Source: Candidatus Nitrosocosmicus arcticus
Lineage (GTDB): Archaea; Thermoproteota; Nitrososphaeria; Nitrososphaerales; Nitrososphaeraceae
Direction: 5' to 3'
DNA length: 32,147 nucleotides
Assembly (NCBI RefSeq): GCF_007826885.1
Contig: NZ_ML675595.1
Coordinates: forward strand, 1-32,147
The notes beneath the pieces are model-generated. The model saw nothing but the letters and a program-made list of their open reading frames with translations. It did no database searches and was not told the origin of the DNA. Within the stretch, counting starts at the first letter, position 1; each line of letters starts with the position of its first letter. Positions 5,792-27,490 of this stretch are shown here, piece after piece. The position numbers and the translations under genes are program-made.

Positions 5792-6802
5792 TTGTTAAAT
5801 AAATCATCGTTTAATAAAGTTCTGAAATGGATAGACGATACACTTATCTTCATCGTTATCTTGGTAACGGCTTTCTCTTTTCTTATAGGTCTCTTTTTAG
5901 TATTTTTTACAAACCTTGGTGGTGAAGTTCATTGGTATAATGATATTCCTCTTGACTTTTTGATATTTGATATTTTTGGACTAAATTCAATATATTTCAA
6001 CTTAGGAATTACCTTCATGTTTTTTTGGACCGTTTACATGACATGTTATCTATTTTGTTTTTTAAAACCTTTTTCAATCCTTAATTTATCTTCAGTGAAA
6101 AAGCCGTTCCTAATGATTGGACTTGAAGCGATCAAAGTACAGCGTAATAACTATCTTGCAATAACTATTTCTTGGTTTTCAGGCTATTTTGTACTCTCAA
6201 TTTTGATTGATGTTATCCAACAGCTATTTGGTTTCAAGTTAGGGAACCCCTTAACTAATAACCCAATTTTATCCTTTTTTTATTTGTCTGCCGCCCCTTT
6301 GAACGAAGAGATATTCTTTAGGGTTCTCCTTTTAGGGATACCATTATTCCTGTTACTCATCCCAGTTGGTAAAGATTTATTCCTTTCAACACTTATTCAT
6401 CCATACAAAAATATTCGGTATAAAAAAGGAAAATACATAACTTTAGCAATAGCAATAATTATTGCATTGAATTCACTAGCTTTTGGATTATCCCATGTCA
6501 TATTTGGAGGTGGCTATGAAATCGGAAAAATAACTCAAGCTGGGCTGGGCGGCGTTATAATAGCTTGGCTTTATTATAGGTACAGCCTTTCTTCAGCTAT
6601 TACATTCCATTGGATTTCTAATTATGTATTTTTTGCGTATAGTATATTTGGATATTTTTTGTTCAAAACTCCTTGGAACGCCGAATCTGATAATCTATTC
6701 TTGGCTATCATATCAGTGGTTTTTATAATAATGGGTATAATATTTTTGTATAGGCTTTTCGAGCAACTAATTACAAAGTATTTGAAAAAATCAAAAATGT
6801 GA
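5792..6802 (+). CDS. CPBP-family intramembrane metalloprotease (CAAX protease/Abi)
   Basis: The 336-residue polytopic membrane protein has the three motifs of the CPBP (Rce1/Abi) family. They are NEEIFFR (about residues 171-177, the EExxxR motif), GLSHVIFGGG (about 232-241, conserved His), and ITFHWISNYVF (about 269-280, HxxxN/B). In Rce1 these acidic and His residues cut substrates inside the membrane; CPBP proteins have varied roles, and the substrate here is unknown. Membrane segments are visible at about 18-40, 70-95, 115-140, 180-200, 220-240, 255-275 and 305-325. The start is TTG. It ends 5 bp before the end of the convergent TFB gene. Confidence 0.85.
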   Translation: MLNKSSFNKVLKWIDDTLIFIVILVTAFSFLIGLFLVFFTNLGGEVHWYNDIPLDFLIFDIFGLNSIYFNLGITFMFFWTVYMTCYLFCFLKPFSILNLSSVKKPFLMIGLEAIKVQRNNYLAITISWFSGYFVLSILIDVIQQLFGFKLGNPLTNNPILSFFYLSAAPLNEEIFFRVLLLGIPLFLLLIPVGKDLFLSTLIHPYKNIRYKKGKYITLAIAIIIALNSLAFGLSHVIFGGGYEIGKITQAGLGGVIIAWLYYRYSLSSAITFHWISNYVFFAYSIFGYFLFKTPWNAESDNLFLAIISVVFIIMGIIFLYRLFEQLITKYLKKSKM

Positions 6803-8006: not shown

Positions 8007-8030
8007 CATTATTCCATCAATACTTTGTTC

Positions 8031-10478
8031 ATGAGGAATATCTTGCAAGTGGTTGTTTTTTTGACTGCACTTTTCGCTATCGTTCTTTGTAGTTCTGAGA
8101 ATTATGCTTTTTCCCAGATGAATAAGACTGGAGGCTATGCTGACCAAGTTAAATTTATAAGATTTTCTAATGAAAATGTTGCGTACCAGGAAGTGACTAA
8201 TGGTCACCTTGACAGTTATTTTTTCCAAATTCCTCTGCATCTTGTTGAATCAGCTAAAAAGAATTCAAATCTAGAAGTGTTTGAGAAGGAGGGTCTTTCT
8301 TATGGTTTGTTAATAAATCCTTATAATGCGAGCCAAACTTTCAATCCTTTCTCAATCAAAGAAATAAGATTTGCAATGAATTTCTTGATCGATAGGAACT
8401 TTATAGTAAATAATATTTTAAAGGGTTTCAGCAATCCCATCGTAGAGCCGTACGGACCCACATCTCCTGAATACCATAATGTGATACCTGTAGTAGATCC
8501 ATTGAAAATCCATTATGACTTAACCCTTGCTACTAAAAGTATCAAGGACTCTATGATAAAGGCGGGAGCAATTATGGATGGAACAGGTAAGTATACCCTA
8601 AATGGAAAAGCCGTGCTGGTTAAGATATTGATTAGAAATGACGATTTGTTAAGAAAATCTTTCGGTGATTTTGTTGCATCTGAGGTTGAAAAAGTCGGAT
8701 TTACGGTCGTGAAGGAATACGGTGATTTGACAAAAGCCAATAGAGTTGTTTATGGATCAGACCCGGCAGATTTGGAATGGAATGTTTATACCGAATCATA
8801 CATTTCTAGTTCATTCTCAAGGTATAATCCAACAACTGTTAGTCAAATGTATGCTCCGTGGTTTGGAAATATGCCAGGATCTCAGAATCCCGTCTTTTGG
8901 CAGTATTCCAATTCAACAATCGATGACCTAACACAAAAGCTCGTTTTTAACAATTTTACTTCTGAAATAGAACGAAATAATTTGTTAAGACAAGCGGAGT
9001 CGGCAGGTTTGCAAGAAGCAGTGCGCCTCTTTTTTGCAAGATCCTTTGATCCATACATTTCCTCATCAAAAATTAGTGGCCTGATTAACGACTATTCTGC
9101 CGGCATTGCTAATAAATTGTCATTGATAAACGCTATAAAAAACAATACCGATAATTCTACACTCAATATAGGGATGAAAGAAGTATATCAAGGAGCCTGG
9201 AACAATGTTAAGGGTTGCACAGATTTTTATTGTAGGATCATTTATTCACTTGTTGCTGACACTCCAACGATATCTAATCCTTATTCTGGCGACCCTGAAC
9301 CCTCTAGAAATATGTGGACCTATCTGTTCTCAAAAGGGCCTACTGATACTGTCATAGTTCCAAGCGATGCCCTTACCTGGAACCCATTTAATCAAAGTTG
9401 GGATAAGAACAAAAATCAAAGTAATTCTGCATTAACCAAAGTTACTATGACACCTTTGTTCTCAAATTGGCATAATGGGGAACTCATGGATAAGTATGAT
9501 CTCTTGTACTCTTATTATTTTCCATTCGAATGGTCCACTGATACTAAAAATAACGATAAGACCTTTGATGCCGAATATTCCAGTTTAATTTTTCCAACTT
9601 TGTCCCTGATTAAAGGAATAAAATTCTATGACAACAACACATTTGATACCTATGTCGATCTTTGGCATTATGACAAAAAATTAGTCCCCTCTTACGGGAC
9701 CTTATGGCCTTCTGAACCATGGGAAATTACTGCCGCTACGGAACGATTGGTTGCGGATAATAAATTGTCTTATTCAAAATCTGATGCTAATATTAAACAT
9801 ATAGATCAGTTATCTCTGAATCTTCCAGTGCAATCCGAATTGATAAAACGAGAGTTGATTAAGATGTCTAATGAAAATTATGTGCCCAATCCTTTGAAAG
9901 GTTTGATAAGTTTGGAGTATGCACTTGAACGCTACAAGTCATCAATAGACTGGATTAATATTCATCACAATGCAGTCATTGGTAACGGGCCTTATTATTT
10001 GGAAACTTTCAATCCTACTGGAGGGGTTGTAACCTTGAATGCGTTTAGAGATAATACATATCCGTTCAAGACAGGAATATACTCTGACTTCGAAAACCCT
10101 CCTGAACTACGCATTGATAGGATTAACATTCCAAAGTTCCTAAAAATAGGAGATCCATATGATTTTGACTTGCTTTTAGGTCTTAACAATCTATCTAATG
10201 GATCAAATAGTTTTAGTGGGATCATTGATCATTTCATTTCTGACAGAAATAATAAAATCGTAGTCGAAGGTTCTACTGTGATAAATAATATCTCTAATAA
10301 TCATTCTGATAGTAAAGGTCAACATCAGCTGGATGAATCTGGGGCTGTTACCATATCCTTGAATGCAAGTCAGACACAGGAACTTATACCAGGTCCAGCG
10401 AAAATAAAACTTATCATTACTTCTACAGAGTCACCAAAACCGCTGATCCAAGAAAATACCTTGATTGCCAGGCCTTGA
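8031..10478 (+). CDS. ABC transporter solute-binding protein, family 5, apparently with permuted halves
   Basis: From ATG 8031 the product has 815 residues; a TTG two codons earlier is possible. Residues 1-28 form a signal peptide (hydrophobic VVVFLTALFAIVL), so the protein is exported. Residues about 38-335 resemble the usual C-terminal half of family 5 binding proteins (peptide/nickel type): GHLDSYFF, then IKEIRFAMNFLIDR and a lobe with VASEVEKVGFTV. Residues about 378-680 resemble the usual N-terminal half: WHNGELMDKYDLLYS matches the 'fhdGeplta.Dv' region, and VIGNGPYYLETF matches the 'iGtGPY' motif that normally precedes the other half. Residues about 690-815 look like an added beta-sandwich. 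The family captures peptides, nickel or similar solutes; the ligand here is unknown. Two permeases follow. Confidence 0.85.
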   Translation: MRNILQVVVFLTALFAIVLCSSENYAFSQMNKTGGYADQVKFIRFSNENVAYQEVTNGHLDSYFFQIPLHLVESAKKNSNLEVFEKEGLSYGLLINPYNASQTFNPFSIKEIRFAMNFLIDRNFIVNNILKGFSNPIVEPYGPTSPEYHNVIPVVDPLKIHYDLTLATKSIKDSMIKAGAIMDGTGKYTLNGKAVLVKILIRNDDLLRKSFGDFVASEVEKVGFTVVKEYGDLTKANRVVYGSDPADLEWNVYTESYISSSFSRYNPTTVSQMYAPWFGNMPGSQNPVFWQYSNSTIDDLTQKLVFNNFTSEIERNNLLRQAESAGLQEAVRLFFARSFDPYISSSKISGLINDYSAGIANKLSLINAIKNNTDNSTLNIGMKEVYQGAWNNVKGCTDFYCRIIYSLVADTPTISNPYSGDPEPSRNMWTYLFSKGPTDTVIVPSDALTWNPFNQSWDKNKNQSNSALTKVTMTPLFSNWHNGELMDKYDLLYSYYFPFEWSTDTKNNDKTFDAEYSSLIFPTLSLIKGIKFYDNNTFDTYVDLWHYDKKLVPSYGTLWPSEPWEITAATERLVADNKLSYSKSDANIKHIDQLSLNLPVQSELIKRELIKMSNENYVPNPLKGLISLEYALERYKSSIDWINIHHNAVIGNGPYYLETFNPTGGVVTLNAFRDNTYPFKTGIYSDFENPPELRIDRINIPKFLKIGDPYDFDLLLGLNNLSNGSNSFSGIIDHFISDRNNKIVVEGSTVINNISNNHSDSKGQHQLDESGAVTISLNASQTQELIPGPAKIKLIITSTESPKPLIQENTLIARP

Positions 10479-10516
10479 GTAGGGTTTAAAATAACAATAT
10501 AGACGGATTTGCCTTG

Positions 10517-11584
10517 ATGACCATCATCGTTTACCTTTTAAAAAAAATCTCAATTTTGATATTAGTTTTGATTATCACACTATTGGTTACAATATTCCTT
10601 TTAGGTTCGACCATTGACAAAATAATGGTGGATAATATTCGAATGCAGGTAACTAACTCTCTATCCAACTCTATATCTGAAAACCAAAGACTAGGTCAGC
10701 TACAAGACCCTCAGGAAAGGCAGTCGATAATCAATAAACAAATTAGTATCCAAATTAAAAGTCTGGGGCTAGACGAACCTTGGTATTCTCCAAAAAAAAT
10801 AATTAATAGCCTCCTTCAAATCATTACATTAAACTTGGGTAATTCTAGATTTTTTACCACTCATGATGGCTCAAGTAGCGTGAATGAACTAATAATTGAA
10901 AAAGTACCAAATACAATTTTGTTGTTTACATCCTCCTCAATAACTGTAGTAGCCATAGGAATAGTAATAGGGTCTTATTTGGCAAAGATGGAAGGAAAAT
11001 TTTCCGATCAATTGATAGCTGGTCTTGCCTCTGCCAGTCAGAGTGTACCTCCATGGTGGTTTTCAATGATAATGATAGTTTTGTTTTCATTCCTGCTTCA
11101 AATTTTTCCTGCTAGATCTACACCTTTAATTTCTCCAGATACTCCGGGATACTTCATTGATTTATTATATCATATGACTTTGCCTTTTATTACAATGGTT
11201 ATCATAGGTTTTGCATCATCCGTTTACTATGTTAAATATATTGTTTTGAGGATAATTGATGAAGATTATATAAAGACCCTAGGAATTATTGGATTGCCTT
11301 CTAGAAAAATTTTACTCAAACACGCACTCAAGAACGCTGGACCTCAATTGACGACAATGTTAGGATTAGGCCTTACTGCAACATTGGGAGGGTCTATACT
11401 GATAGAAGAAATATTTGATTGGCCTGGCATGGGAAACCTGTTTTACAATGCAGTTATTCAGAATGATTCTCCTTTAATTATAGGCCTGGTATACTTCTTT
11501 ACACTGCTTTATTTATTGACAAGATTGCTATTGGACCTTACACTGTCACTTTTGGATCCACGAATTAGCACTGGAGATGAATGA
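10517..11584 (+). CDS. ABC transporter permease, DppB/OppB type
   Basis: This 355-residue polytopic protein is the first permease of a peptide/nickel-type importer. It has an N-terminal membrane helix (about 8-32), a periplasm-facing segment, then a cluster of helices from about residue 130. The EAA loop that contacts the ATPase is clear: DYIKTLGIIGLPSRKILLKHAL, followed by the family ending GGSILIEEIFDWPGMGNLFYNAV. The ATG at 10517 directly follows an in-frame TTG at 10514; I chose ATG. It begins 38 bp after the solute-binding gene and ends 21 bp before the second permease, so the three form one operon. Confidence 0.93.
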   Translation: MTIIVYLLKKISILILVLIITLLVTIFLLGSTIDKIMVDNIRMQVTNSLSNSISENQRLGQLQDPQERQSIINKQISIQIKSLGLDEPWYSPKKIINSLLQIITLNLGNSRFFTTHDGSSSVNELIIEKVPNTILLFTSSSITVVAIGIVIGSYLAKMEGKFSDQLIAGLASASQSVPPWWFSMIMIVLFSFLLQIFPARSTPLISPDTPGYFIDLLYHMTLPFITMVIIGFASSVYYVKYIVLRIIDEDYIKTLGIIGLPSRKILLKHALKNAGPQLTTMLGLGLTATLGGSILIEEIFDWPGMGNLFYNAVIQNDSPLIIGLVYFFTLLYLLTRLLLDLTLSLLDPRISTGDE

Positions 11585-11605: not shown

Positions 11606-13027
11606 ATGTTGACTAGTAAAATGAAACTTCGTCTAAAGAACTACAAGGGTGGGGTCCTGGGCTTTGTTTTGCTTTTGTTCTTGATCGGGATCACTATCTA
11701 TACTGTTTTTTATATCCCAGCAAAGGAACGATCGGAATGGAATAATCCCTTCTATTGGATCGATTATCCCAAAAATGCGGCGCCTGCTTGGGTTAACTAT
11801 TTCTTAATGCCATTTAACCAGCAATTACCAGAACATAAGGTATATTCCAAGGAAGAAGCAGTAATTTCATCTTATGCTGAAACCGACTTTAAAGTGAATA
11901 ACCTTACATTTTTATACGAATATGTATATGGCCAATTTCCATCTGCTTTTAGCATACCATTTTCATTGGAGATCGGTGAAATTTCTCCAGCAGTAGAAAT
12001 TTCGGTTAAAAGGCCCGATGGATTGACATTTGATCTATATTATAATTCATTAGATCCTATACCAAGCGTCCAAAACGAGGTCGGGGCTCAATTATCTGAT
12101 GGCGATACCCACCCCTACGAGATATCTCAAAGACTTTTTTCATCGTCTAAAGAGGTAATTGATACTTTAATGAAATATACAAATTTGTTTAACTTTTCTT
12201 TAAGCGATTTGCCTTCTGAAAAAATTATCTTTTCTGAAACTAATTCAAATATACCTCTCAAAGGAACATATCAGTTTGTTTTTACTACTTATTCTTTTGA
12301 TAATGACACCATTCTAAAAGATATAAATCTCATAATAGAAGGCAAAGTGTTTGGATTGTTAGGAACAGATGAATTTCGACGGGATATATCCTTTGGGATC
12401 ATGATCGGAACTCCAGTAGCACTCCTAATCGGGGTCGCAGTAGCTTCATCCTCAACCACTATTGGTCTTTTCTATGGATTGATTGCTGGATATAAAGGGG
12501 GAAAAACAGGAACGTTTATGGTAATAATGATTGATATTTTTCTTTCGATTCCAACGATGGTATTATTTATCATATTATCACTTAATTTTGGAAGGAGTTT
12601 GTTATTTTTAATTGGACTTTTTGTCTTATTTGGTTGGCCAGGAGTGGCATTGATAAATCGAACATTTAGTGTTCAAATTAAGAATTATCCTTACGTCGAA
12701 GCTTCTAAATTGATGGGTGAATCTGATTTTAAGGTTGTATTGAGACATATTATCCCTCAGTTAATCCCCTTTACCCTTGCCAATTTTGCACTTTCGGTGC
12801 CAGCAGCAATATTGGCTGAATCTGCCTTGAGTTTTTTGGGATTTGGAGATCCATCTTTTCCCACATGGGGTCAAATGTTGCAGGATGCTCACTTCTCATC
12901 CGCTGAAATTTTAGGATATTGGTGGTGGATATTACCACCTGGACTTATGATTTCGATGACTAGCATGGCGTTTATTCTAATAGGAAGGTCTTTAGAGCAC
13001 AGGGCTAAACTGAGCAAAAAACAATAA
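11606..13027 (+). CDS. ABC transporter permease, DppC/OppC type, with large external insertion
   Basis: The 473-residue protein has a first membrane helix at about 16-37, then some 210 mostly polar residues before the family motif GLLGTDEFRRDISFG (about 250-264). The permease core follows, with the EAA loop ASKLMGESDFKVVLRHIIPQL and the C-terminal LAESALSFLGFGDPSFPTWGQML. DppC proteins are normally around 300 residues with a short stretch between helix 1 and the GTDxxGRD motif. This one therefore carries roughly 150-180 extra residues outside the membrane, with beta-strand-like segments. It pairs with the DppB-type permease upstream. No ATPase gene follows; the next gene is on the other strand. 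Confidence 0.92.
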   Translation: MLTSKMKLRLKNYKGGVLGFVLLLFLIGITIYTVFYIPAKERSEWNNPFYWIDYPKNAAPAWVNYFLMPFNQQLPEHKVYSKEEAVISSYAETDFKVNNLTFLYEYVYGQFPSAFSIPFSLEIGEISPAVEISVKRPDGLTFDLYYNSLDPIPSVQNEVGAQLSDGDTHPYEISQRLFSSSKEVIDTLMKYTNLFNFSLSDLPSEKIIFSETNSNIPLKGTYQFVFTTYSFDNDTILKDINLIIEGKVFGLLGTDEFRRDISFGIMIGTPVALLIGVAVASSSTTIGLFYGLIAGYKGGKTGTFMVIMIDIFLSIPTMVLFIILSLNFGRSLLFLIGLFVLFGWPGVALINRTFSVQIKNYPYVEASKLMGESDFKVVLRHIIPQLIPFTLANFALSVPAAILAESALSFLGFGDPSFPTWGQMLQDAHFSSAEILGYWWWILPPGLMISMTSMAFILIGRSLEHRAKLSKKQ

Positions 13028-13617: not shown

Positions 13618-15108
13618 TTGGAAAGCATTATTTTTAGTTTGATTTATCAGATTTCCATTATACTTATTTTTTCTACCATTGTATTTCTTGGCGGATTTCT
13701 ATCCGGTGCAAGTGCGCAAATTCTCCCACAAAACAATAATCAAAGTTCAGATTCCACCACTATTACTGCTCCTTCATCTACTCCTTCTATGGTTAAGAAC
13801 CCTTACGGGATCAGAATTACAAATCCCACAAATGGTGCTCAGGTTTTTATCAATGGTACAGATTATTTTGACAGTACAGGAAAAAGACTTTCCATTGAAG
13901 GTTTTTCTGTATCAAATAACGGTAATTTGACGAATTGCGAAGTGTCGTTAGTGACTAACAGCATTTTTCCATATCAAATGGTAAATGGGAGTGGTCCACT
14001 AGGAGTAAAGGACTTTTCCAAATGGAACTACCTATTTAGTTCGACCTACGCAAACTTTCATGAAGGCTCAAATAAGATCACTTCAAAATTAGCTTGTGAA
14101 GGGGGTACTGCAAAGGCATACTATAGTGTTAATGTAACGGGAACAAAATTTAATGGGACATTTCCTGCATCTTCTACAACTTTGGCTCTAGCTGAGGAAG
14201 GTATTACAGGTGATAGTTTACCTCCAAGCTCAAATATTGCAGGTAAATCTCAAAGTAATATAAGCTCAAGCGACATCAACTCGTCTAGTGAAGATTTGGC
14301 ACTTCCTGTGACTGGGATCGAAATCACATCTCCTTCCAATGGGGAAACGATTGATATTGATAAGCCTATAAATATTAACGGTAGTTCGGAATATCCAACT
14401 AATTACGATTGTGAAGTACTTTTAGCTGACGGTAATACTGCAGGCGTGATAGCACCAACTAGCGCTAACCATTCTAATTTTAAGAAAACAAAGCCTGGAG
14501 GCATTAACGGCACGAGTGATTTTAGAAGTTGGAGTATGGTACTTGAACCTGGATTAAATAACCTAAAGAATGGCACACAGTCATTAACTGCAAAATTGCA
14601 ATGCTATTCTCCGTTATCTTCCGTGAAATTTGCCAAAATAAGTATTGTTACAAATACTTCTAAACCGTTAGAACTCAAAGTAATGGATGTCAGTATTGAC
14701 AAAACTGGGCAAGGTATAAACCAAAAAATCATCATAGGTGTAAATGACGCTACTACAAATGATCCTTTGGTGGGTAGCGCTATCAGTGGTTCAATTAACG
14801 ATAATCCGTTTTCGGGGACTTCCGATTCACTTGGGAAATACAGCGTAACTATACCGTCTAGCGTTATAGATTCTAGCGCAACCATTAACGTATCAGTTTC
14901 GGCTACTGCTGATGGTTATAAGATTAAAAAGACGAGTACTACTTTTGAAGGATCACTTGCGGTAACTGATGAAACAACTCCATCCACATCCGATACTGAT
15001 AATCGTGATGTAACAAACAACGAAGAGGATCTTGCAGATAAAATATTTGATGATGTGCAAAAGCAACTAAGTGAGCAGGGAATTAATATTCCTCTCCCTT
15101 TTGGATAG
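13618..15108 (+). CDS. Secreted protein with duplicated Ig-like domain (surface protein, function unknown)
   Basis: Residues 1-33 are a signal peptide ending in GASAQ. After a Ser/Thr-rich linker come two homologous domains, about residues 63-176 and 233-346. Each opens with I-x-I-T-x-P-x-N-G, holds a DFxxW motif, and has one Cys pair (C107/C160 and C265/C329) that could form disulfides. A third beta domain (about 352-443) resembles carboxypeptidase-regulatory/Ig folds, with DPLVGSAISG and GTSDSLGKYSV. The tail is acidic and ends in a helix. Many N-x-S/T sites suggest N-glycosylation. It lacks a C-terminal membrane anchor, so it is secreted or held by other partners. The start is TTG. I do not recognise a named family; an adhesive or cell-surface role is inference. 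Confidence 0.8.
   Translation: MESIIFSLIYQISIILIFSTIVFLGGFLSGASAQILPQNNNQSSDSTTITAPSSTPSMVKNPYGIRITNPTNGAQVFINGTDYFDSTGKRLSIEGFSVSNNGNLTNCEVSLVTNSIFPYQMVNGSGPLGVKDFSKWNYLFSSTYANFHEGSNKITSKLACEGGTAKAYYSVNVTGTKFNGTFPASSTTLALAEEGITGDSLPPSSNIAGKSQSNISSSDINSSSEDLALPVTGIEITSPSNGETIDIDKPININGSSEYPTNYDCEVLLADGNTAGVIAPTSANHSNFKKTKPGGINGTSDFRSWSMVLEPGLNNLKNGTQSLTAKLQCYSPLSSVKFAKISIVTNTSKPLELKVMDVSIDKTGQGINQKIIIGVNDATTNDPLVGSAISGSINDNPFSGTSDSLGKYSVTIPSSVIDSSATINVSVSATADGYKIKKTSTTFEGSLAVTDETTPSTSDTDNRDVTNNEEDLADKIFDDVQKQLSEQGINIPLPFG
13804..14145 (+). repeat. Ig-like repeat A within the secreted protein
   Basis: The encoded domain begins GIRITNPTNGAQVFI, contains NCEV and DFSKWNYLF, and ends near LACEGG plus a YSVNVTGT strand. 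It matches repeat B in the order and spacing of the key residues. Confidence 0.6.
14314..14655 (+). repeat. Ig-like repeat B within the secreted protein
   Basis: The encoded domain begins GIEITSPSNGETIDI, contains DCEV and DFRSWSMVL, and ends near KLQCY plus a KISIVTN strand. It is diverged from repeat A, so the duplication is old. Confidence 0.6.
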
Positions 15109-20328: not shown

Positions 20329-21441
20329 TCAGACACTAACGAGTGTAATTTCCGAATTTGGAATTATGATGGATTTTGAATATTTGCTATTCTTCTCAAT
20401 TATTAGATCTAACCCATCCTTTATCCTTTGCAGCGATTTCAATCCCAATTTGTCGGAATAGATTCGAGGAAGACTTGAAATTAAAAAGATCTCGTATTTT
20501 TCTCTTAATAAGTTGAGAAAATTAATGTGTTCCAAATCTTTTGAATAATGATACTTATTTAGTCCATTTAAATCTAGTCGGTTTTCAATTAGTTTAAGCA
20601 ATGCCCCATTACCTACTCCACCTCTATTTTCCGATAATAATATTATTATTCCATTATCTCTCACTGCATGGTAATTATTCCATAAGAGGTTTAAACTATT
20701 TCCGAGCGTCAATTGGCCGGAATAATTAGTGTTACCGGAAATGAACGCGGATTTTGAAGATTCGGCGGTTGGTTGAGTTATTGACTTAAATCTTTCAATG
20801 GCTTGGTTAAAAGAATGTGTGGGGTCTCCGATAAAGATCGAGTCTATTCCTTCGTTATTAGAAATTACATGTATTGATTGAAAATTAAGTTTAGATGTAA
20901 CTTCAATTGCCAATTTAAGAGGTTCATTATACTTACCAGGCTGAGGTAACGAATCAAAGATGCTAGAGTAAACTTGGTTCATTCCATCGGGATAGCATTC
21001 CCTCAGTAGTCTGACTGGGGATCCAGTGTAACCGAATACCGGATCATATTCGATCCTATCTATTATTATGATGTTGTTAAATTTACTTACTTTGTCCAAT
21101 ACTTCTTCGCTGGCTAGTCTACTGAAGCTAATGCCATTTTCACCAAGCTGTTGTTTTACTCTTTGAGGAATAGATTTTGAAAGTATACAGTACTCAATAT
21201 TTTCAATATTCAATTCTTTGGATTTGTTTTGGATAAATGTTAGCATTGGTATCATAAAAAAAAACGAACTTGTAATCAGAATCAGCGTTGATTCTTGAAT
21301 CACTATTTTGTTTTCTATCTCAATATTCAATTTCTCTAAATCCAGTTGATTCATTGAGGGTCTCGGTGTGTGGGAAATATTCTCATATTTGATGTCCAAT
21401 ATAATTTCTGAATCACCATACCCTAACCATATTTCCGGCAT
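20329..21441 (-). CDS. Divergent LarA/DUF2088-like protein
   Basis: The 370-residue protein follows the layout of the LarA (nickel-dependent lactate racemase) fold. There is an N-terminal domain starting WLGYGDSEIILDI, then SIHVISNNEGIDSIFIGDPTHSFNQAIERF, which resembles the LarA 'vNVvl...i..vfaGd...Ah..a' segment. GIIILLSENRGGVGNGAL resembles its 'GG.iilvae.s.GiG' loop. However, the 'ATGxHRP' motif that carries an active-site His appears replaced by LSKSIPQR (about residues 88-95), and the 'DxTRPxP' motif by SSFFFMIP. I therefore doubt nickel-pincer racemase activity. Function is unknown. It is divergent from pyrE, sharing a 58 bp spacer with a central TATA-like element at 21466-21474. Confidence 0.6.
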   Translation of the reverse strand: MPEIWLGYGDSEIILDIKYENISHTPRPSMNQLDLEKLNIEIENKIVIQESTLILITSSFFFMIPMLTFIQNKSKELNIENIEYCILSKSIPQRVKQQLGENGISFSRLASEEVLDKVSKFNNIIIIDRIEYDPVFGYTGSPVRLLRECYPDGMNQVYSSIFDSLPQPGKYNEPLKLAIEVTSKLNFQSIHVISNNEGIDSIFIGDPTHSFNQAIERFKSITQPTAESSKSAFISGNTNYSGQLTLGNSLNLLWNNYHAVRDNGIIILLSENRGGVGNGALLKLIENRLDLNGLNKYHYSKDLEHINFLNLLREKYEIFLISSLPRIYSDKLGLKSLQRIKDGLDLIIEKNSKYSKSIIIPNSEITLVSV

Positions 21442-26497: not shown

Positions 26498-27490
26498 TCA
26501 ATTACTGGACTTTCTGTTACTCAAAACAAATATCGATTCAATATCTTTGAAATAAGGTAATTGAATATCATCCACTGCCATCTCTGGCTCAAAATCTAAA
26601 ATATTATTCTTCGGTATCAAAAAGTTCAGCGGATCGTATCCTGATACAATATCTTTATTTGTTTTCACCAAAATATGACATTTTGTAATTTCATTTCCAT
26701 CTTCTATTATGTTTACTTCTTGTTCAGCTTCTGTAAGTAAATTACTGGCTGTTTCTATCACATTTTTCATTATTGAAATTTTTTCAGTAGGTTGATACAA
26801 ATAAAGCGAGCATTTTTGGATACTATTAATATCAATTTTTTGTGTCAATTGAGCCATTGTTTCTATAAATGCGTCTTTTATGCCTGCTTTAGATTTATTA
26901 GAAGTAACAAAATTAAACTTTTCTGGAAAACTCTTGTTCAATGATTGAACTATTATATCGACTATCGCTGTATTGGTAATCTCGTAGCATTGTGCAATGG
27001 AAATATCATACCCATTTCTTATTACTGAATTGTTATCAATTACAATAACACTGTTAACGAATTTACATAAAAAAGAAAGAGATACACCGCAACGGAATAA
27101 CTTTTCTTTCTCAAATCCAAAAGGGAGTATAGTTAAGCATATTATCTCTCGTTTCATGTTATTCTTAAGTATTTGAGATAAGACTGGCAGAACTGCTGAT
27201 CCAAACTTGGAGGCTAAGTTCCCAACTATGATAATGGATTGATATTCATTAACCTTTGAAAGAATTTCGTCTTTTGCTTCCAATAATGCTTTTCTTATCT
27301 GGTCTAATGATGGATTAATTCTGAATGGAATAGTTATTTCAATTTTCTTATCGAAATCAAAACCAGTCGAGGAATTATTCTCCAAAAAAAGATAATCTAA
27401 GTTCACTTTTTCCAATACTTTAGTTGTTATCTTTACCCCTGCATTCCCAACACCGATAATACATGTATTTAAAGTAGTAGCATTCTTCAA
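26498..27490 (-). CDS. Divergent FtsZ/tubulin-like protein
   Basis: The 330-residue protein keeps the FtsZ layout: an N-terminal nucleotide loop IGVGNAGVK (12-20), SLDQIRKALLEA, then a strand plus loop at 86-98, LTILPFGFEKEKLFRCGVSLSFL (119-141) and SVIVIDNNSVI (147-157). These match FtsZ 'KPFxFEGxxR...' and 'xxVIPNDxLL'. The T4 glycine loop, normally GGGTGTG, is GNLASKFGS here, and I find no NxDxxD catalytic motif in the T7 region. GTP hydrolysis is therefore doubtful. Thaumarchaeota divide with Cdv proteins and encode a divergent FtsZ homologue of unclear role. The TTG start has a TATA-like CACTTTTATC about 30 bp upstream. Confidence 0.7.
   Translation of the reverse strand: MKNATTLNTCIIGVGNAGVKITTKVLEKVNLDYLFLENNSSTGFDFDKKIEITIPFRINPSLDQIRKALLEAKDEILSKVNEYQSIIIVGNLASKFGSAVLPVLSQILKNNMKREIICLTILPFGFEKEKLFRCGVSLSFLCKFVNSVIVIDNNSVIRNGYDISIAQCYEITNTAIVDIIVQSLNKSFPEKFNFVTSNKSKAGIKDAFIETMAQLTQKIDINSIQKCSLYLYQPTEKISIMKNVIETASNLLTEAEQEVNIIEDGNEITKCHILVKTNKDIVSGYDPLNFLIPKNNILDFEPEMAVDDIQLPYFKDIESIFVLSNRKSSN

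Follow-up and report, generated by a model that had tools for sequence, protein, structure and literature searches.

A probable circularly permuted family 5 substrate-binding protein of an Opp/Dpp-type importer in Candidatus Nitrosocosmicus arcticus

Introduction

The window, i.e., the whole 32,147-nucleotide stretch of Candidatus Nitrosocosmicus arcticus DNA analysed here, encodes a protein with the motifs of family 5 substrate-binding proteins (SBPs), but in an unexpected order. A preliminary description of this DNA had placed GHLDSYFF and EIRFAMNFLIDR ahead of WHNGELMDKYDLLYS and VIGNGPYYLETF, the reverse of the usual arrangement, and all four motifs are indeed located in that way. Are the two halves of the fold exchanged along the chain, and if so, does the protein still serve an importer?

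Results

The gene and the parts of its product

The open reading frame begins with an ATG at 8031 on the forward strand, and its stop codon ends at 10478. An in-frame TTG at 8025 is the earliest possible start. The protein has 815 residues from the ATG and 817 from the TTG; residue numbers used here run from the TTG. The features of the gene are as follows.

8031..10478, + strand: coding sequence of the probable permuted family 5 SBP (open-reading-frame list, Pfam SBP_bac_5, 7fi3 pieces, AlphaFold2 model)
8031..8120, + strand: N-terminal hydrophobic helix, residues 3-32 (sequence, AlphaFold2 helix 2-32, hydropathy scan)
8124..9149, + strand: canonical C-terminal half, placed first, residues 34-375 (VIA-align to 7fi3, HH comparison)
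Residues ~59-67, + strand: NGHLDSYFF motif (sequence)
8361..8396, + strand: EIRFAMNFLIDR, counterpart of the canonical RqAi..aiDR, residues 113-124 (sequence)
9150..9170, + strand: putative junction of the original C and N termini, residues 376-382 (edges of both matches)
9171..10097, + strand: canonical N-terminal half, placed second, residues 383-691 (VIA-align to 7fi3, HH comparison)
9468..9512, + strand: WHNGELMDKYDLLYS, counterpart of the canonical wHdGeplTAdDv, residues 482-496 (sequence, 7fi3 alignment)
9975..10010, + strand: VIGNGPYYLETF, counterpart of the canonical iGtGPY, residues 651-662 (sequence)
10098..10475, + strand: macroglobulin/Ig-like beta-sandwich, residues 692-817 (VIA-align Z ~11, alignment A1, hydropathy)

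Residues 34-375 comprise the canonical second lobe together with the last strands of the first lobe. Among 31 relatives, R115 of EIRFAMNFLIDR and G655 of VIGNGPYYLETF are invariant, and R124 and P656 of the same two motifs nearly so. The N-terminal helix is either a signal peptide or an uncleaved membrane anchor; no clear lipobox was found.

The two halves of the fold are in swapped order

The Pfam profile SBP_bac_5 (PF00496) matches residues 24-264 at 69.2 bits (E 4.7e-19), against a curated cut-off of 32.4 bits. This match spans profile positions 137-351 only, and the order usual in the family, in which the half with iGtGPY precedes the half with RqAi..aiDR, is swapped, which makes the protein a permuted homologue of family 5 rather than one of its canonical members. 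In a phmmer search of the PDB with the single query, 7fi3_A, the OppA of Thermococcus kodakarensis, was matched in two swapped pieces, with query residues 387-680 on chain positions 18-309 (83 bits) and residues 38-295 on positions 321-598 (90 bits). A profile of 31 relatives (alignment A1) lifts the two pieces to 193 and 185 bits. That is, homology with the Thermococcus OppA-like subfamily extends over both halves, but the order of the halves is not shared.

The structure of the whole chain was modelled with AlphaFold2 from a 31-row alignment (pLDDT 88.5, pTM 0.83). VIA-align superposes model residues 34-375 on residues 332-755 of 7fi3 (Z 29.4, 337 residues, 2.5 Å). The fragment 377-817 was also folded alone (pLDDT 88.0). 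Its residues 7-315, i.e., 383-691 of the protein, superpose on the N half of 7fi3 (Z 33.4, 297 residues, 2.3 Å), and its residues 316-441 form a macroglobulin/Ig-like beta domain (Z ~11), which gives an identity to the extra C-terminal beta domain proposed in the preliminary description. The family 5 fold is thus recovered in both halves, and together they align 634 residues to the 724-residue 7fi3 chain. Judging by the whole-chain pTM, the two halves are predicted to pack against each other in the canonical way. In a sequential comparison with Foldseek, the TMt was 0.40. The structural matches listed for the SBP part are family 5-type proteins, with no type I SBP among them, and the copy of the PDB that was searched yielded no solved structure for any permuted member.

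The chain is probably opened at the first crossing between the lobes

The position of the cut can be read from relatives. The 725-residue open frame of one Thermoproteota genome (G458) contains Pfam pieces 146-361 and then 2-141, and the same two-piece swapped pattern occurs in one frame in G692, G430, G448 and G008. The cut therefore lies at Pfam position ~141/145, after the iGtGPY strand, as had been proposed from the motifs. In the window protein it falls some 20-30 residues beyond VIGNGPYYLETF.

OppA is divided into domain I (residues 1-44, 169-270 and 487-517), domain II (45-168) and domain III (271-486), and by this division the breakpoint would correspond to the first of the crossings that connect the lobes. 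In the mechanism we propose, the chain would have been cut within the strand that makes the canonical protein's first passage from lobe I to lobe II, beyond iGtGPY, and its old termini, which both belong to lobe I, would have been linked to each other. The Ig-like domain would then be attached to the new C terminus, along with a membrane anchor in most relatives. Given a breakpoint at the first crossing, the permuted protein would keep one covalent crossing between the lobes instead of two, and the tether would be at the hinge.

The protein is encoded next to Opp/Dpp-type permeases

Two permease genes follow the SBP gene.

10514..11584, + strand: DppB/OppB-type permease, starting 35 bases after the SBP gene (BPD_transp_1, 110.9 bits)
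11606..13027, + strand: DppC/OppC-type permease, 473 residues, domain at 287-459 (BPD_transp_1, 81.5 bits)

The linkage to Opp/Dpp permeases that characterises family 5 is thus present here, and it is kept in relatives: a DppB-type permease comes directly after the SBP gene in 62 of the 80 loci with room to see it, and the DppC-type permease is kept downstream in L002, L008, L010 and L011. The source genome encodes exactly one SBP_bac_5 protein, two Opp-type (oligo_HPY) ATPases on other contigs, and four further BPD_transp_1 genes. We conclude, with a probability of about 0.88, that the window protein is the extracellular SBP of an Opp/Dpp-type ABC importer, and that its fold is circularly permuted. 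The two halves would pack as the usual two-lobed trap, capture a peptide or similar solute, and hand it to the permeases; peptide uptake is the function we infer.

It is also conceivable that the protein is permuted but no longer serves uptake, and that the SBP fold is used by a surface, sensory or structural protein. The ATPase genes are outside the window, proteins of this genus are without a C-terminal anchor, and ammonia oxidisers are autotrophs. Nevertheless, two Opp-type permease genes come immediately after the SBP gene and are conserved in relatives, the genome retains two Opp-type ATPases and has no other family 5 SBP, and many positions are invariant across the 31 divergent relatives in alignment A1. 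We therefore regard a loss of the uptake function as unlikely.

The DppC-type permease itself has an unusually long N-terminal part, its domain starting only at residue 287 of 473.

Most relatives of the importer SBP continue after the Ig-like domain with a stalk and a C-terminal transmembrane helix (alignment A1, hydropathy); in this genus the helix is absent according to alignment A1 and the hydropathy scan. A C-terminal transmembrane helix is found in 24 of 30 swapped proteins versus 6 of 24 normal-order proteins (Fisher p 8e-5). The idea that the permutation serves C-terminal anchoring is nonetheless unsupported as a cause, as four phylogenetically independent pairs gave no signal. Some relatives differ at this end. 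L031:1432-4566 encodes a protein of 1,045 residues whose C terminus contains a CFI-box-CTERM domain and a number of hydrophobic stretches, and other g4 members have similarly long frames. In L039:1474-3969, the C-terminal sequence PEFPAGILVLMAAVFGGIIAATRRRLF resembles a PEF-CTERM sorting signal, which would replace the usual anchor.

The order of the halves appears to have switched repeatedly

Normal-order proteins are found among the direct relatives of the window protein, namely L142:679-3366 (G443), L157 (G505), L155, L201 and 7fi3. L155 and L201 come from two assemblies of one genus (G592 and G595). The first four are nested among swapped-order relatives, which is evidence for switches of order. 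As an example, the identity between L142 (normal) and L192 (swapped) is 41.6% over the N half and 38.6% over the C half.

In a 28-row tree calculated with IQ-TREE under LG+C20 PMSF, normal order occurs in three separate places among swapped proteins, and the starred branches force three switches. Trees of the N half and the C half, built separately, force three switches each. A single normal-order clade is rejected for the 28-row set (AU p = 0.0003). A 69-row tree that includes other family 5 proteins gives the same picture, with support of 98/97 and 99/99 for the key branches, and unites the window protein and 7fi3 in one clade, with 100/100 support, relative to those other proteins. From these sequence comparisons, the order of the halves appears to have switched at least three times within the 7fi3-like clade; outside it, the count of origins is limited by long branches in the large tree. 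The switches may be several gains, or one gain followed by reversions. FastTree runs put most of the more compact swapped proteins next to the 7fi3-like clade, which would favour an early gain and later reversion, although the branches concerned are open in the careful tree.

A tandem duplication with fusion, followed by loss of the outer halves, would produce the swapped order. Such a route works in both directions, in keeping with the repeated switches. Neither an N-C-N nor a C-N-C intermediate turned up among the proteins analysed.

An alternative is that N-half and C-half modules existed separately and recombined repeatedly to give the swapped order, with no circular permutation of a single gene. 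The order labels do interleave on the tree, and the normal-order pair L155/L201 is placed differently in the N-half and C-half trees. Elsewhere, however, the half-trees agree: both group normal-order L142/L157 with swapped L190-L196, both unite 7fi3 with L059 in one clade, and both require the three switches. At those placements the two halves thus travel together, and we consider shuffling of modules improbable.

A broader reading is that family 5 SBPs switch repeatedly between the normal and the permuted form at the same hinge strand, that in Thermoproteota the permuted form prevails in the 7fi3-like clade, and that Thermococcus OppA is possibly a reversion. We put this forward tentatively, at slightly less than an even chance. 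If true, a single covalent crossing between the lobes, with the tether at the hinge, would be a stable and functional design for a major class of importers.

Each segment matches a different canonical half

Profiles of the first segment (residues 37-376) and the second segment (377-684) were built from the 31 relatives and compared, by HH, with 16 normal-order family 5 proteins from Thermoproteota, whose N and C halves were taken separately. The first segment matches the canonical C half with a probability of 99.9% (score 229), versus 0.1% for the N half. The second matches the canonical N half with 96.8% (score 76), versus 0.1% for the C half. Against the whole canonical profile, the score is 323 when rotated and 239 in the native order.

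The preliminary description had proposed a family 5 circular permutation, and had named two results that would speak against it: a match of both segments to the same half, as in a duplication, and a sequential alignment that scores as well as the permuted one. Neither was obtained. The window protein is ~300 residues longer than DppA, as might be expected if both segments were copies of the same half, or if a sequential family 5 protein had acquired large insertions. However, the halves do not cross-match, rotation of the profile raises the score, and the structure alignments put the segments on two different halves of 7fi3; this reading is thus highly improbable and was dropped.

The swapped order is found across the class

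The source genome (~2.64 Mb, 98% complete) is in 22 contigs. Most of the named assemblies closest to it are of Candidatus Nitrosocosmicus, and one at 95% identity is labelled Nitrosopumilus. The query matches 310 of 400 Nitrososphaeria genomes, in 60 of 82 genera, and the best-listed of these relatives match end to end and in the same swapped order, including those from closed genomes. A phylum-wide profile search of Thermoproteota gave matches in 299 of 397 genomes (131 of 170 genera), where the best rows listed span nearly the whole model in one frame and weaker rows also contain proteins in normal order and partial matches. Permuted relatives of full length are found repeatedly across the phylum. 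In the plasmid collection, close relatives were not found, only three partial matches. The swapped order is class-wide and in part phylum-wide.

An artefact of assembly or binning, or a local scramble of this gene in one fragmented genome, can be dismissed, since full-length matches in the same order occur in many genomes, among them the single-contig genomes G070, G093 and G100 at 99% completeness and other closed genomes of relatives, as well as in the independent named GenBank records of other Nitrosocosmicus assemblies.

Other permuted family 5 proteins

A second type of permutation (P2) is seen in L124 and in a Nitratireductor plasmid protein, P0002. Here the chain starts midway through the C half, passes on to the N half, and closes with the first part of the C half, i.e., the order is C2-N-C1. 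PDB relatives match P0002 over the N-C1 part, and the best of them shows C2 as a separate, out-of-order piece. Among plasmid records, 51 have one place that covers at least 80% of P0002; the 40 matches listed are single alignments, in haloarchaea and alphaproteobacteria. The P2 genes inspected adjoin permease genes and, where the stretch is long enough, ATPase genes.

Like the window protein, the P2 examples WP_113156578.1 (Nitratireductor plasmid) and WP_238532955.1 (Halalkalicoccus) are permuted family 5 SBPs, and P2 genes also lie beside opp-type transporter genes. Unlike the window protein, they are opened inside the C half and lie in another part of the tree. P2 proteins should keep both lobe crossings.

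P2 loci are L148:3911-5509 (Nitratireductor sp. OM-1 plasmid pOM-1), L149-L153 and L124:1123-3174. P2 adjoins opp-type genes in haloarchaea and alphaproteobacteria and was seen once in Thermoproteota; the proteins are annotated plainly as ABC transporter substrate-binding protein.

L132:1799-3964 (G458), part of a complete opp operon, encodes a swapped-order SBP of 721 residues. Its chain ends soon after the GPY strand, with neither an Ig domain nor a C-terminal anchor. It is on a very long branch among normal-order proteins, and may therefore be an independent permutation.

Discussion

The closest known protein, Thermococcus kodakarensis OppA, is homologous to the window protein in both halves (26-27% identity, Z 29-33) and shares its clade on the trees, but runs N-then-C, whereas the window protein runs C-then-N and has the added Ig-like domain. 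The same contrast holds for family 5 as a whole (DppA, OppA, NikA, AppA), which shares the fold of both halves and the Opp-type permeases with the window protein but has its halves unswapped; the chain of the window type is opened at Pfam ~141/145. The homology is clear and the usual order, when tested, was not found; we classify the window protein as a permuted form of an already known family.

Circular permutation in nature has been reported before for a binding protein of an ABC importer. TpMglB-2 (Tp0684) is a permuted sugar-binding protein designated 'Type Ic' or Cluster Bc, and its authors raise tethering as a possible cause of the permutation (PMC4990184). It has the type I (cluster B) fold, is bacterial, and has another breakpoint, which adds a fourth crossing. 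This is the one report of a natural permuted binding protein in the open-access literature searched, where no published permuted family 5 SBP was found; PMC2588589 mentions SBP_bac_5 and circular permutation in unrelated places only. The preliminary description knew of no account of such a protein either. To our knowledge, the swapped order and its repeated switching are undescribed.

The significance of these findings is threefold. One of the largest families of SBPs has a permuted form in abundant ammonia-oxidising archaea, where it readily escapes notice, as annotation picks up no more than a partial Pfam match. Family 5 profiles and sequential structure searches should be used in the knowledge that they recover only part of such proteins. 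Lastly, with both orders interleaved in one clade at ~40% identity, matched natural pairs are available in which to ask how chain connectivity and hinge crossings affect folding, closure and transport.

Elsewhere in the window, the open reading frames 13618-15108 (496 residues), 5792-6802 (336) and 20329-21441 (370) gave no Pfam match at the thresholds used. The gene at 26498-27490, on the reverse strand, encodes a 330-residue protein with a partial match to the tubulin/FtsZ GTPase profile (positions 89-187 of 190).
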